Positions 34,022-40,136 of a stretch of 64,000 nt of DNA are shown here, one piece after another. This DNA comes from Halogeometricum sp. S1BR25-6 (GTDB taxonomy: Archaea; Halobacteriota; Halobacteria; Halobacteriales; Haloferacaceae): assembly GCF_031624495.1 (NCBI RefSeq), contig NZ_JAMQOP010000002.1:496001-560000 (forward strand). The letters are read 5' to 3'. Numbering within the stretch: position 1 is the first letter of the stretch; each line of letters begins with the position of its first letter. The notes beneath the pieces were generated by a model. That model did no database searches and was not told where the DNA came from. It saw only the letters and a program-made list of their open reading frames with translations. The translations under genes were made by a program, and so were the position numbers.

Positions 34022-34714
34022 TCAGGCGACGACGCGTTCGTCTCCGACGACGGTCGCTAGGAAGTTCCGCATCACGTCGTGGCCGACGCCCGTCAGCACC
34101 GACTCGGGGTGGAACTGCACCGCCTCGATGGGGAACTCGCGGTGGCGCACCCCCATCACGAGTTCCGTCCCATCGTCGGACTCGCTTTCGCCGGCCCCGT
34201 GGACCGTCGTGGCCGACACCTCGAAGCAGTCGGGCACTTCGGTGGCGACCAGCGAGTGGTAGCGGCCGGCCTGGAACCCTTGTTCTAACCCTCGAAACAC
34301 GCCGCGGCCGTCGTGGTCGACCGGAGAGGCCTTGCCGTGGACGGGGTCGGGGGCGTGGCCGACGCTGCCGCCGTAGGCGTACACCGCGGCTTCGAGGCCG
34401 AGACACACCCCGAGCGTCGGGACGGACTCGGAGAGCGTCGTCAGCACCTCGTTCGTCACGCCGACGTCGCGGTCGTTCTTCGGGTGTCCCGGACCCGGAC
34501 TGACGACGAGGGCGTCCGGATCGAGACCGCGAATCTCGTCGAGCGACGCCGTGTTCTTTCGGACGAGCACCTCCACCGGCTCACCGGACGACGTCCGGTT
34601 GCTCGACGGGCTTCGCCCGTCGGTGTCGCCGTCCACCCGCTGTTCGGAGAGATACTCCACGAGGTTGTACGTGAACGAGTCGAAGTTGTCGACGACGACG
34701 ACGCGGAGGCTCAT
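34022..34714 (-). CDS. trpG: Anthranilate synthase, glutamine amidotransferase subunit
   Basis: The protein has 230 residues from the ATG at 34714, which overlaps the trpE stop. It is a class I glutamine amidotransferase: VVVDNFDSFTYNLVEYL at the N-terminus, the catalytic Cys in TLGVCLGLEA and His in EAVQFHPES. The common GHQ after the Cys is GLE here. It feeds ammonia to TrpE. A 15-20 residue insert around residues 26-43 is encoded by paired hairpins at 34583-34622. Confidence 0.94.
   Translation of the reverse strand: MSLRVVVVDNFDSFTYNLVEYLSEQRVDGDTDGRSPSSNRTSSGEPVEVLVRKNTASLDEIRGLDPDALVVSPGPGHPKNDRDVGVTNEVLTTLSESVPTLGVCLGLEAAVYAYGGSVGHAPDPVHGKASPVDHDGRGVFRGLEQGFQAGRYHSLVATEVPDCFEVSATTVHGAGESESDDGTELVMGVRHREFPIEAVQFHPESVLTGVGHDVMRNFLATVVGDERVVA
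34583..34622. repeat. Two adjacent perfect hairpins inside trpG
   Basis: The first has 7-bp arms ACCGGAC / GTCCGGT around gac (34583-34599). Four bases later the second has 8-bp arms CGACGGGC / GCCCGTCG around ttc (34604-34622). The layout matches the pair in nrdJ, with the same GCGAAGC core on the coding strand. Confidence 0.9.
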
Positions 34715-36360
34715 CGGCGGGCCTCCTCGGGGGCGGCCTCCGAATCGTCTTCGCCGCCGGTACCGTCCGCGGGCGTCCGCTCGATTCGCTCGACGGCGGC
34801 GAGGACGCCGCCCATCTTCTGCTCCGTCTCCTCGTACTCGGCGGCCGGGTCGCTGTCGGCAACGAGGCCGGCGCCCGCGCGGACCGAGATGGTGTCCTCC
34901 TCTCCCGAGCGGTCGACCGTCGCGGTGCGGATGACGATGGCGAAGTCGGCGTCGCCGGACCACGAGTAGTAGCCGACGCCGCCGCCGTACATTCCTCTAG
35001 GAGTGAGTTCCAACTCGTCAATTATCTCCATCGCGCGCACCTTCGGCGCGCCGGTGAGCGTCCCGGCGGGGAACGTCGCGCGCGTCGCGTCGAACGAATC
35101 CTTGCCGGCCGCGAGCGTTCCCGTCACCGTGGACTCGATGTGCTGGACGTGGCTGTACTTCAGGACGTTCATGAACTCCTCGACGCGGACGCTGCCCGCC
35201 TCGCTCACCCGGCGGACGTCGTTGCGCGCGAGGTCGACGAGCATCGTGTGCTCGGCGCGTTCCTTCCCGTCGGCGAGCATCTCGCCCGCGAGGCGGCGGT
35301 CTTCGACGGGACTCGTCCCGCGTTCGCAGGTGCCCGCGATGGGGTTCGAGACGACCCGGTCGCCGTGGACGGAGACGAGCGTCTCCGGACTCGCACCGAC
35401 GATGTGCCGGTCGTCGTGGCGGAGCAGGTACATGTACGGCGAGGGGTTCACGGTCCGGAGCGCCTCGTACAGACCCATCGGGTCCACCGCCCCGCGGAGT
35501 TCGCGGACGCGGGAGATGACGCCCTGGTAGATGTCGCCGTCGAGGACGCGCTCTTTCGTCTCGCGGACGGCCGCCTCGTACTCGTCTCTGGGGCCGGCCG
35601 TCTCGCCCGTGCGGACGAAGCCGCCGGTGTCGGGGGCCTCCGCCGCTCGCAGGGTCGCGACGACGTCTCGGGCCTCCGCGAGCAGTTCGTCGTACACCTC
35701 GCCCGCGTCGTCGTCCGGGCCGACGACGGGCGTGCAGACGAGCGTCGCCGTCCCTTCGGCGTGGTCGAACGACAGGGTGCGCGTCGTGAGGACGAACTCC
35801 GCGTCCGGGGTGTCCGTCTCGGGACGGTCGACGCCCACCTCTTCGAGCCAGAGGTCGTAGACGGCCTCGTAGGCGAGGAAGCCGACCAGACCACCGCGCA
35901 GGCGCTGTCGGTCGTCGTCCGGGAAGCCGACGCGCGGGAGGTCCGGGAGCGCCCCGCGGAGTCGGTCCAGCACGTCGCCGTCGCCGGGGTCGAGATAGCG
36001 TGCGGCGCGGCCGCCGAGCGACTTGACCGAAGTGCCGTCGGGGCCGACGGTGACGACGGCCTCGGGGTCGTAGCCGACGAACGAGTAGCGGGCGTGTCGG
36101 TCCGCCGTCGCGTGGTCCGGCGCGAACGCGCCGTCGGGGTCGCTGGAGGCGGTCTTCTCGGCGCTCTCTAAGAGAAAGCCGTAGTCGCTGCGGTCCGCGA
36201 GCGCCGCGTACGCCGTCATCGGCGTCGTCGCCGGCAGGTCGGCGGTGACGTGCGCGACGACCGGACGCTCCTCGTCGTCGAGGAGCGAGACGAACTCCGC
36301 GCGCGAGAGCGACAGCGAGGCGTCGACGTCAGCGTCGGCGACCCCGTCCGCGCGCGTCAC
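34711..36360 (-). CDS. trpE: Anthranilate synthase component I
   Basis: The protein has 549 residues from the GTG at 36360, which overlaps the trpF stop (GTGA). The chorismate-binding core is clear: GDIYQGVISRVRELRG, NPSPYMYLLRHDDRHIVGAS, PIAGTCERG, and the C-terminal PAGTLTGAPKVRAMEIIDEL then YGGGVGYYSW. It makes anthranilate from chorismate with TrpG. The open frame continuing upstream is a shadow of trpF. Confidence 0.95.
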   Translation of the reverse strand: MTRADGVADADVDASLSLSRAEFVSLLDDEERPVVAHVTADLPATTPMTAYAALADRSDYGFLLESAEKTASSDPDGAFAPDHATADRHARYSFVGYDPEAVVTVGPDGTSVKSLGGRAARYLDPGDGDVLDRLRGALPDLPRVGFPDDDRQRLRGGLVGFLAYEAVYDLWLEEVGVDRPETDTPDAEFVLTTRTLSFDHAEGTATLVCTPVVGPDDDAGEVYDELLAEARDVVATLRAAEAPDTGGFVRTGETAGPRDEYEAAVRETKERVLDGDIYQGVISRVRELRGAVDPMGLYEALRTVNPSPYMYLLRHDDRHIVGASPETLVSVHGDRVVSNPIAGTCERGTSPVEDRRLAGEMLADGKERAEHTMLVDLARNDVRRVSEAGSVRVEEFMNVLKYSHVQHIESTVTGTLAAGKDSFDATRATFPAGTLTGAPKVRAMEIIDELELTPRGMYGGGVGYYSWSGDADFAIVIRTATVDRSGEEDTISVRAGAGLVADSDPAAEYEETEQKMGGVLAAVERIERTPADGTGGEDDSEAAPEEARR

Positions 36361-37016
36361 GTCCGCACCTCCGCGGCGTCGGCGGCCGCGGCCTTGGCGT
36401 TCTCGACGAACGCCCGCACGGCGTCGGGGTCCTTCACGCCGCCCTCGGACTCGACGCCACTGGCCACATCGACGGCGTAGGGGTCGACCGTCTCGATGGC
36501 CTCTGCGACGTTGTCGGGCGTCAATCCACCCGCGAGAATCACCGGCGCGTCGAGCGTCGAAGCCACTTTGGCCGTCTGCTGCCAGTCGTGCGTCTCGCCG
36601 GTGCCGCCCGCGCCCTCCTCGCTCACGGAGTCGACGACGACGCCGTCGACGGCCGCGTCGATGGCGCGGGCTCGCTGCGGTTCCTCGGCGTCGACGACGG
36701 CGACGACGCAGGCGTCCACCGCGGCGCGGACGGCGCGGTACTCTTCGGCATCGAACTCGCCGTGAATCTGGAGTACGTCGGGTTTCACTCGGTTGCCGAC
36801 GTCGATGGCCTCGCTGGGCGTCTCCGGCATGGTGACGTGCGTGGCCGAGAGGAACGGCGAGGCGGTGGCGGCGAGTTCGGCCGCCCGGACGAGCGACAGT
36901 TCGCGCGGCGTGTCCACGGGGACGCCGGCGATGAAGCCGACGGCGTCCGCGCCCGCCTCCTCGACGACGCGCAGGTCCTCCTCGCGCGTGACGCCGCAAA
37001 TCTTCACCCGGACCAT
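36357..37016 (-). CDS. trpF: Phosphoribosylanthranilate isomerase
   Basis: The protein has 219 residues, a single TIM barrel. The N-terminal catalytic Cys is in MVRVKICGVTREED. The C-terminal phosphate-binding part reads PVILAGGLTPDNVAEAI and VDVASGVESEGGVKD. It isomerises phosphoribosylanthranilate in tryptophan synthesis. It lies 1 base after trpD and overlaps trpE. Confidence 0.95.
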   Translation of the reverse strand: MVRVKICGVTREEDLRVVEEAGADAVGFIAGVPVDTPRELSLVRAAELAATASPFLSATHVTMPETPSEAIDVGNRVKPDVLQIHGEFDAEEYRAVRAAVDACVVAVVDAEEPQRARAIDAAVDGVVVDSVSEEGAGGTGETHDWQQTAKVASTLDAPVILAGGLTPDNVAEAIETVDPYAVDVASGVESEGGVKDPDAVRAFVENAKAAAADAAEVRT

Positions 37017-37017
37017 C

Positions 37018-38052
37018 TCAGACCTCCGCCGACTCCGCGTCGGGAGCCTCCTCGGTACCGCAGAGGGCCGCGAACGTCTCGGCGGCCGCCCCGGAGTCGA
37101 TGGCCTCGGCGGCGCGTTCGACGCCAGCCTCGATGCTGTCTGTGAGTCCCGCGACGTATATCGCCGCCCCGGCGTTGGCGAGGATGATGTCCCGCTTCGG
37201 TCCCGTTACGTCGCCGGTGACGATGCCGCGGAGGTCCTTGGCGTTCTCCTGCGGCGTGCCGCCCGCCACTTCCGAGACGGGCGCCGGGTCGAGACCGATG
37301 TCCTCCGGGGAGAGCGTGTACTCCTTGATCTCCTCCCCTCTGACTTCGGCGACGAGCGTCTCATCGTGGAGCGCGATTTCGTCCATGCCGGAGCCGTGGA
37401 CGACGAGGGCGCGTTCGACGGACATCTTCGTCAGCGCGCGGGCGAGCACCGGAACGAGGTCCGGGTCGTAGACGCCGACGACCTGCGCTTGCGCGCCCGC
37501 GGGGTTCGTCAGAGGTCCGAGCACGTTGAAGACCGTCCGCATGCCGAGTTCCTTCCGCGGGCCGATGACGGCCTTCATCGCGGGGTGGAATACCGTCGCG
37601 AGCATGAAGCCGATGCCGTCACGGTCGATTGCGGCCTCGACGGCCGCTGGTTCGGCCTCCACGTCGGCGCCGGCGACTTCGAGCACGTCGGCGCTCCCCG
37701 ACGAGGAGGACACCGAGTAGTTGCCGTGTTTGGCGACGGCCGCGCCCGCCCCGGCGGCGACGATGGCGCTGGTCGTCGAGACGTTGATGGTGTCGTAGTC
37801 GTCGCCGCCGGTGCCGCAGGTGTCCACCAGCGGCGTCCGCTCCGGCGAGATGGTTCGCGCGGCGTCACGCATCCCCTGCGCGAACCCCGCTATCTCCGCC
37901 TCCGTCTCGCCCTTCGCCCGTAGCGCGGCCAGCAGCGCGCCGATTTGCGCGTCCGTCGCGCCCTCGAAGACGGCGCTGGCGGCCTCGCGGGCCTCTTCCT
38001 GCGTCAGGTCCGTTCCCTCCGTCGCGCGTTCGATGTATGTTTGAAGCGTCAT
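37018..38052 (-). CDS. trpD: Anthranilate phosphoribosyltransferase
   Basis: The protein has 344 residues. The PRPP-binding loop LVDTCGTGGDDYDTINVST and the KHGNYSVSSSSGSADVLE segment are diagnostic. It transfers phosphoribose to anthranilate. It is the first gene of trpD-trpF-trpE-trpG. trpC, trpB and trpA are not in the window and must be elsewhere. Confidence 0.95.
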   Translation of the reverse strand: MTLQTYIERATEGTDLTQEEAREAASAVFEGATDAQIGALLAALRAKGETEAEIAGFAQGMRDAARTISPERTPLVDTCGTGGDDYDTINVSTTSAIVAAGAGAAVAKHGNYSVSSSSGSADVLEVAGADVEAEPAAVEAAIDRDGIGFMLATVFHPAMKAVIGPRKELGMRTVFNVLGPLTNPAGAQAQVVGVYDPDLVPVLARALTKMSVERALVVHGSGMDEIALHDETLVAEVRGEEIKEYTLSPEDIGLDPAPVSEVAGGTPQENAKDLRGIVTGDVTGPKRDIILANAGAAIYVAGLTDSIEAGVERAAEAIDSGAAAETFAALCGTEEAPDAESAEV

Positions 38053-38065
38053 TGTGAGACACCGA

Positions 38066-38101
38066 TGTACGTGTTCGGGTTATGATGTACAAATAAGTAC
38101 A
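38066..38101 (-). promoter_or_regulatory. Candidate promoter/operator of trpDFEG
   Basis: The dyad TGTACAAATAAGTACA at 38086-38101 surrounds an AT-rich box (ACTTATTTG on the coding strand) that would serve as TATA, about 40 bases before trpD. A third TGTAC is at 38066-38070. TGTACA is the box recognised by the tryptophan regulator TrpY in Methanothermobacter, so similar regulation is possible. Confidence 0.6.
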
Positions 38102-38288
38102 CCAGCATAAGGCTGTCGGGGCGGGACTGGAGCGACGGGAGGGCCGACGTTCGATGAGTCCCGAAAGCGCGTCGCGTCCCCGCGCCGTCCCTCGGAATCG
38201 AGCGACTCCGCTCCGATTCGCAACCCTTAATTGTATCCCCGGAAAACGAGGTAATGCGCTCAGACGGGCGCACTGCACGCAGCACACC

Positions 38289-38363
38289 GGGTTGGTGGTC
38301 TAGTCTGGTTATGACACCTCCTTGACATGGAGGAGGCCGGCAGTTCAAATCTGCCCCAACCCA
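38289..38363 (+). tRNA. tRNA-Val (anticodon GAC)
   Basis: A 7-bp acceptor stem GGGUUGG pairs with CCAACCC at 38356-38362, with discriminator A. The anticodon stem CCUCC/GGAGG encloses UUGACAU, giving GAC. The T arm reads GGCAGUUCAAAUCUGCC. A possible promoter box cccttaattg is near 38224. A T4 run at 38369-38372 follows. Confidence 0.96.
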
Positions 38364-38702
38364 CTCACTTTTCCAAGCGAACTACACGGTGAACATCCCG
38401 TGTGTTCGCCACTCGCAAGCCGGATACGTTAGTTCCGCAGAGTAGCTTCGAACCGACGGACACCGTGAGCGATGCGAGTGAGGCTCACAACCCGCCCTCC
38501 CTACTCTGATCCCTCGCAACGACGAGCGGAGCCGTCGACTCCGCAGTCGTCTCGACGCTGTTCGGTACGAGTCTTCGACTGGGCGCACGCGTCGCTTACA
38601 GTTCGCGCCGAGAGACAGCGCCGACGCGATTCGGCGAATCGCTCCGACTACCAGAAGAAAGCACGTCGGCGCGGGTTCGCTCGCTTTCTGAGGTAAGCCC
38701 GG
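38364..38702. other. Structured intergenic region, possible non-coding RNA
   Basis: This 339-base stretch has no convincing ORF; the 74- and 68-residue frames are Arg/Ser-rich. It contains four hairpins. The strongest is 38377-38409, where GCGAAC plus ACACGG pair with CCGTGT plus GTTCGC, with one bulged T. The others are GTGAGC/GCTCAC at 38465-38488, GCGGAG/CTCCGC at 38526-38544 and AGAAAGC/GCTTTCT at 38656-38689. It is either a structured RNA, a remnant of a repeat element, or a set of terminators. Confidence 0.45.
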
Positions 38703-40136
38703 CTATCCGAGGAAACCCGCGTTTCCGTTCCCGTTCCCGTTCGTGTTTCCGTTTCCGTTTGCTTCACCGTTCGGCGGTGAGCCGCCCCCGTCGGACTCGT
38801 TCGAGGCCGCCTCGTCGGCGTTGTCGTTCGGTTCCGGACCGTCCTCGTCGTCGCCGAGACCGAGGGCGGTTTCGACGAGTCCGCCCTCGTCACCGTCCTT
38901 CGCCGGGGGCGCCGCTTCGGCGTTCGGTTCGCTGTCTTCGGTCGCCTCCTCCGTCGCCGTCGGTTCATCAGTCGGCGCTTCGGTCGCTGTGGCAGTTTCC
39001 GTCTCGGTGCTGGTCTCCGTCCGAGTCGGGGTCGCGGATTCGGTCGGCGTGGCTGTCGGCTCGTCGGTTGGCGTGGCTGTCGGTTCGTCGGTTGGCGTGG
39101 CTGTCGGTTCGCCGGTCGGCGTGGCTGTCGGCTCGTCGGTTGGCGTGGCTGTCGGCTCGTCGGTTGGCGTGGCTGTCGGCTCGTCGGTCGGCGTGGCTGT
39201 CGGCTCGTCGGTCGATTCAGCCGTTTCCGTCTCGCGACGCGTCTCGGTCTGCGTCGGGTTCTGCGCTCGGTCCGCGTCGCCGGCTATCGCCGCCGCAGTC
39301 GTCAGCAGCGCCGACAGAGCGCCGTCGTCTCCTTCGGTCTCCGTCGGCGCGTCGGTATCGGTCGGTGCCTCGGTCTCCGTTTCGCCGTTCTCGTCGTCGG
39401 CGTTCGGTTCGTCCGAGTCCGAATTCGAGTTCGAGTCCGCGTTCGGTTCGTCTTCGTTCTCGTCGGCGTTCTCCGGTGCGTCCGTTTCGGTGTCGGTTTC
39501 GGCAGCCGTGTCGGTTGCCGTCTCGGATTCCGCGTCCGCATCGGCGTTCGGGTCGTCCTCGTCGTCGGACTCCGCGTCGACCGCGGCCGAGGCGTTCGCG
39601 CCCGCGTCGGTGGGCGTCTCGGTCTCCGTGTCGGTCACGGTATCGGTCGCCGTGTCCGTATCGGTCGCGGTATCGGTTGCCGTGTCCGTGTCGGTATTCG
39701 ATTCGTCCGAGTCGTCCGAGTCGTCGTCCGCATTCTCGGAATCGTCGGAGTCGGCGTTCGCGCCGTCGGAGCTATCGTCCGAGTCCGAGTCCGAGTTCGA
39801 GTCCGAATCCGAATCGGCGTTCGGCTCGTTCGAGTCGCTCGAATCCGACTCCGCGTTCGGTTCGTCAGAGTCCGAATTCGAATTCGAGTTCGAGTCCGCG
39901 TTCGGTTCGTTTTCGTCCGCGTCGGCGTTCGGCGGCGCGTCCGTCGGGGTGGCCATGTCGGTCGAATCGCCGCCGTCGTCGGTGGTCGCGTCAGGCGAGA
40001 CGCTGGACCCGTCCGGGGTCTGCGCGCTCTCTACCTCCGACACGATTTCGCCGGACGGTGACTCCGACGGGCCCACGCCGATACAGCCGGTCGTGACGAA
40101 GATGAGTACGACTCCGAGTACTATCAGCCGGGACAT
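38703..40136 (-). CDS. Low-complexity acidic lipoprotein
   Basis: The protein has 477 residues. The N-terminus MSRLIVLGVVLIFVTTGCIG is a lipoprotein signal with the lipobox TTGC, so it should be exported and lipid-anchored. The rest is low-complexity: EPNAD/EPNAE units separated by Ser/Asp/Asn runs, Thr-Asp and Thr-Glu runs, seven TATPTDEP-type repeats, and a C-terminal Asn/Gly run ending NAGFLG. It looks like an extended, negatively charged surface stalk. Despite the repeats, the frame stays intact over 1.4 kb, which argues for a real gene. No binding or catalytic domain is visible. Confidence 0.75.
   Translation of the reverse strand: MSRLIVLGVVLIFVTTGCIGVGPSESPSGEIVSEVESAQTPDGSSVSPDATTDDGGDSTDMATPTDAPPNADADENEPNADSNSNSNSDSDEPNAESDSSDSNEPNADSDSDSNSDSDSDDSSDGANADSDDSENADDDSDDSDESNTDTDTATDTATDTDTATDTVTDTETETPTDAGANASAAVDAESDDEDDPNADADAESETATDTAAETDTETDAPENADENEDEPNADSNSNSDSDEPNADDENGETETEAPTDTDAPTETEGDDGALSALLTTAAAIAGDADRAQNPTQTETRRETETAESTDEPTATPTDEPTATPTDEPTATPTDEPTATPTGEPTATPTDEPTATPTDEPTATPTESATPTRTETSTETETATATEAPTDEPTATEEATEDSEPNAEAAPPAKDGDEGGLVETALGLGDDEDGPEPNDNADEAASNESDGGGSPPNGEANGNGNTNGNGNGNAGFLG
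39045..39212. repeat. 24-bp tandem repeat inside the lipoprotein gene
   Basis: About seven copies of gtggctgtcggctcgtcggt plus four bases encode TATPTDEP units on the minus strand. Copies differ at few positions, mostly c/t and g/t changes. Because the unit is a multiple of three, loss or gain of copies would keep the frame. Confidence 0.9.

Follow-up and report, generated by a model that had tools for sequence, protein, structure and literature searches.

TGTACA is the TRP-box consensus of Methanothermobacter TrpY. In that organism TrpY represses trpEGCFBAD as well as its own gene, acting via TRP boxes between trpY and trpE (PMC6737238). The T. kodakarensis homologue TK1227 is 42% identical to Methanothermobacter TrpY and does not control trp, so family membership is no guarantee of the role; the haloarchaeal branch of TrpY was left unexamined in that study (PMC6737238). 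In Halobacterium, lack of aromatic amino acids induces all seven trp genes, in both operons, and LrpA2 was put forward as a regulator (PMC4162585); both trp operons of Haloarcula hispanica depend on TrmB, have no TrmB site and led to the proposal of an additional factor (PMC10817205). In the non-subscription literature searched, no description of a haloarchaeal TRP-box operator was found.

The window analysed here, a 64,000-nucleotide stretch of the genome of Halogeometricum sp. S1BR25-6, contains a trpDFEG operon with an array of TGTAC-like boxes in its promoter. The features are listed below, with box positions counted from the start of box 1 and conservation taken from an alignment of 81 haloarchaeal trpD promoters.

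37018–38052, minus strand: trpD (anthranilate phosphoribosyltransferase), first gene of trpDFEG; open reading frame 72–87% identical to haloarchaeal relatives
36357–37016, minus strand: trpF, from open reading frame and sequence
34711–36400, minus strand: trpE, start approximate, from the open reading frame at 34711–36999
34022–34714, minus strand: trpG, start approximate, from open reading frame and sequence
38106–38119, minus strand: CGACAGCCTTATG, probable BRE and TATA elements for trpD, located before the array; TT invariant and CGACA near-invariant
38097–38101, minus strand: box 1, TGTAC, array position 0; T in 80/81, G in 81/81 and C in 79/81 promoters
38086–38091, minus strand: box 2, TGTACA, position +10; G, C and last A invariant (81/81)
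38077–38081, minus strand: degenerate third position, +20, here AACCC, consensus AAnnC; C at +24 invariant (81/81)
38066–38071, minus strand: box 4, CGTACA, position +30; C and last A invariant (81/81)
38060–38063, minus strand: GGTG, probable Shine-Dalgarno element before trpD, conserved after the last box; kept at +38 to +41 in 75–78 of 81 promoters

A tRNA-Val (GAC) gene lies divergent to trpD at 38289–38364 on the plus strand, and a motif resembling a tRNA gene end, GGTTTCGAATC, occurs in the trpD upstream region of several other haloarchaea. Upstream of the promoter region, 38703–40136 on the minus strand holds a long, low-complexity, secreted-type open reading frame with repeated PTDEPTAT and Ser/Asp-rich stretches. 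A sigma-70 promoter scan was set aside as not meaningful for archaea.

On the minus strand, the sequence upstream of trpD (ATG at 38052) reads CGACAGCCTTATGCTGG TGTACTTATT TGTACATCAT AACCCGAACA CGTACATCGG TGTCTCACAATG, which is a TATA element followed by TGTAC, TGTAC, AACCC and CGTAC at exact 10-bp steps. An earlier note on this DNA had described a perfect TGTAC-N6-GTACA dyad before trpD and a third TGTAC 15 bases downstream of it; both are present, the dyad as TGTACAAATAAGTACA at 38086–38101 and the third box at 38066–38070, and they belong to an array larger than that note described, with four positions in 10-bp phase over 38066–38101. Its further claim, that the dyad encloses the TATA box, fails: the alignment places an invariant TT just upstream of box 1, so that the likely TATA/BRE (38106–38119) lies outside the dyad, and part of the dyad spacer is variable among the 81 promoters.

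Single TGTAC boxes are common in the window (98 in positions 1–64000, nearly three times the 35 expected from dinucleotide shuffles) and lie mostly outside the trpD promoter, so only the arrangement of boxes is informative. The dyad, with spacers of 4–8 allowed, occurs once in the window, where dinucleotide shuffles give an expectation of 0.02, and nine dyads of this type occur in the whole genome, seven of the other eight inside probable coding frames. A search of the source genome with a pattern allowing three mismatches returned mostly chance matches. The common two-box core of trpD recurs letter for letter as TGTACGAATTTGTAC in the same genome at G000:C1:856241-856258 (locus L302, from 3742), between PadR-like and inorganic-pyrophosphatase-like genes; this site may be chance.

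The 81 promoters (80 haloarchaeal trpD loci and the window, anchored on the array) share the array and not its flanks, with core array positions reaching 2 bits and columns 18–34 bp upstream of box 1 mostly at or below 0.5 bits. All 81 have C at +14, +24 and +34, and 79 of 81 have it at +4, which gives a 10-bp rhythm; A never varies at +15 and +35. Immediately before box 1 stand a near-invariant CGACA, the invariant TT and then a near-invariant A and A/T, and together these are likely the TATA/BRE of the trpD promoter. Two GTAC in 10-bp phase were found in 58 of the 81 promoters, against 0.8% of background 100-bp windows. Conservation in related species, on which the earlier reading depended, extends to a Halorubrum-like genus (so assigned by sequence) of the same family: perfect TGTACA-N4-TGTACA was present in 29 of 29 genomes, as a single copy in 26, and all 29 loci examined were at trpD, while the reversed pattern gave no match in 28 of the 29 genomes. 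By these comparisons the trpD-promoter boxes are real and look functional.

The same reading called for boxes before trpCBA, and a three-box array is indeed found there, in the same 10-bp phase as at trpD. In the source genome, the sequence upstream of trpC (C1:959249) reads GCAAGCCTTA TGTGCAGATG AGTACGTTAG TGTACACTG ATG; haloarchaeal trpC promoters carry CTTATGTACA, then a weaker box (+10) and, immediately ahead of the ATG, TGTACA (+20). The array scored p ≤ 0.01 against shuffles in 28 of the 29 haloarchaeal genomes scored (three more loci were not scorable), and in two or three of the 28 (for example G237 and G233) it is degenerate, the best triple being off the usual register.

At trpD, at trpC and in a non-haloarchaeal set (genomes of the same phylum as the haloarchaea), two-, three- and four-box scores peaked at a phase of 10 and were at background at 9 and 11; four-box means at phase 10 were 19.4, 20.5 and 16.2, respectively, against 12.7–13.6 at phases 9 and 11. 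Within the non-haloarchaeal set the array was clear at the trpE or trpC promoters of loci L221, L231, L241, L340, L342, L343, L346, L347, L357, L359, L363 and L365, weaker in L235, and absent at others, among them some in which trpE does not come first. None of the loci inspected in Archaeoglobus-like genomes had a box before trpC.

Another part of the genome encodes a TrpY-like protein, as the earlier note had envisaged. An ACT-domain search of the source genome and its translated matches led to a 167-aa protein at C1:60955-61443, which matches the curated NCBIfam model TrpY_fam (NF053754) over its full length (positions 1–163 of 163; E 1.8e-72; 242.7 bits, cut-off 180) and carries a C-terminal ACT domain (ACT_7, 27.2 bits, cut-off 27), a combination that places it in the TrpY family. 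A PDB search found no clear relative of this protein, and PF10826 (DUF2551), considered as a guess for the family, was dropped because none of the haloarchaea listed has it. Its gene (G000:C1:60955-61443) is unlinked to the trp genes, trpC being at C1:959249 and trpDFEG on C2. No box array precedes trpY in the source genome and generally none was found upstream of trpY where examined, so there is no sign of the autoregulation that Methanothermobacter shows. No regulator gene recurrently adjoined trpD in the 80 haloarchaeal loci, and a trpE search aimed at Methanobacteria, which reached a family with the order trpC-trpD-trpE-trpG, found no trpY adjoining trpE. In one genome (L321, G007:C5 at about 110.8 kb) a TrpY-family gene is divergent from trpC, like the Methanothermobacter trpY-trpE arrangement, with no TGTACA boxes between; in a methanogen-like genome (L221, 1001–1375) a gene for a small winged-helix-like protein, with no family match over cut-off, lies directly upstream of trpC.

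Of 66 genomes surveyed in the phylum, 59 have a TrpY_fam match over the cut-off, one copy each; the three haloarchaeal genomes that lack one are incomplete (76–86%). G010 and G020 have neither a TrpY-family protein over cut-off nor a trpE array; as TrpY is nearly universal in the phylum, its co-occurrence with the array has little power. Lineages that bear the array have conserved DRRVVD(A/S)T as the putative recognition helix; it is altered to DRKVVV in the Archaeoglobus-like genomes, whose inspected loci had no box before trpC, and this speaks for the TrpY reading. Counting against that reading, several TrpY-bearing genomes had no array at the trpE promoter examined.

The observations are the conserved and phased boxes, the array at trpC, and a TrpY-family protein encoded in the genome, with its domain composition. 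From these we infer that this protein binds the boxes, that tryptophan is its effector and that repression would proceed as follows. TrpY, with an N-terminal region containing a putative helix-turn-helix and a C-terminal ACT domain, would sit on three or four TGTACA-like boxes whose exact 10-bp spacing puts them on one face of the DNA, and its binding would most likely be cooperative and aided by tryptophan. Both arrays coincide with basal promoter elements. The trpD array begins immediately after the TATA element and spans the predicted start site, where the complex would block loading of TFB and RNA polymerase; at trpCBA box 1 lies over the TATA box (CTTATG), where TBP would be kept off. Under tryptophan shortage the complex would be released and both operons transcribed. 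We put the probability that the box array is the operator of a tryptophan-responsive, TrpY-family repressor at roughly 0.78; the narrower link, that a TrpY-family protein reads the trp boxes, is drawn from sequence and seems to us quite probable. The earlier note had left the choice between a related regulator and a convergent solution. We favour the former, with TrpY as the candidate, since the same phased boxes occur at trp promoters of other lineages bearing the TrpY family, and the conservation, the trpC array and the genome-encoded TrpY agree with it.

Another regulator may read the array instead, for example an Lrp/AsnC protein (LrpA2/Trh1): LrpA2 rises 14.9-fold without aromatic amino acids in Halobacterium, where it is a proposed regulator (PMC4162585), and the source genome has ten Lrp/AsnC matches. 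The Lrp-gene upstream regions examined, however, contained no array and a single TGTACA in one case. TGTACA is, to our knowledge, a TrpY box and not a known Lrp motif, and the TrpY family suits both box and phylogeny, so we consider an Lrp/AsnC reader unlikely. We give slightly less credence to a bound factor that activates, or to TrpY acting with a further factor that relays a TrmB/glucose signal. Such schemes would accommodate the TrmB dependence of the Haloarcula hispanica trp operons, which lack TrmB sites (PMC10817205), and have a parallel in the TK0271 protein, an activator of aromatic amino acid genes in Thermococcus (PMC6737238), but the array lies downstream of or over TATA and over the predicted start site, where binding usually represses.

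That the conserved sequence acts on RNA, through a leader, attenuation or translation control, is very improbable. The last box and the conserved GGTG element do fall inside the trpD leader, but boxes 1 and 2 are upstream of the predicted trpD start site, the leader fold is nothing unusual (z −0.21), the trpC array stops a few bases from the ATG at most and the strict 10-bp phase points to DNA. Chance or promoter composition, for which the frequency of TGTAC in the window might speak, is contradicted by the shuffle and phase controls and by the gap between trpD promoters and background windows in phased GTAC pairs (58/81 against 0.8%), and we regard it as negligible.

Haloarchaeal trp regulation was observed earlier without an identified factor (PMC4162585; PMC10817205), and TrpY with its array is very probably, as judged from sequence comparison, the missing tryptophan switch. 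The result offers a concrete operator, a concrete candidate for the protein that reads it and at least two operons as the regulon, all of which could be tested in Haloferax volcanii. It is also relevant to the tools for selection and induction with tryptophan that are used in Haloferax. It suggests that TrpY control extends well beyond Methanothermobacter. More tentatively, and at somewhat less than even odds, the TrpY family and the 10-bp-phased TGTACA array may constitute an ancient, phylum-wide tryptophan switch, common to haloarchaea and methanogens, in which tryptophan drives assembly of the repressor on one face of the promoter; we found no description of this one-face phased geometry for archaeal repressors.

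Among known systems, T. kodakarensis likewise has a TrpY homologue, TK1227, in another euryarchaeon; it differs in that TK1227 has no control over trp, and TK0271 (Tar) activates those genes instead (PMC6737238). Another likeness is to trpY-trpEGCFBAD of Methanothermobacter thermautotrophicus, which shares TGTACA boxes at trp promoters over basal elements and a genome-encoded TrpY-family protein (PMC6737238). Unlike that system, the source genome keeps trpY away from the trp genes and without a box array of its own, lacks the autoregulated divergent trpY-trpE pair with shared boxes, an accessory trait that does not define the operator, and carries the site at two separate operons. A possible further difference is the strict 10-bp array of three to four positions, to which binding is predicted here. 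The proposed haloarchaeal switch would resemble the bacterial TrpR repressor in giving tryptophan-dependent repression at an operator, TrpR differing from the TrpY system in both protein architecture and operator.
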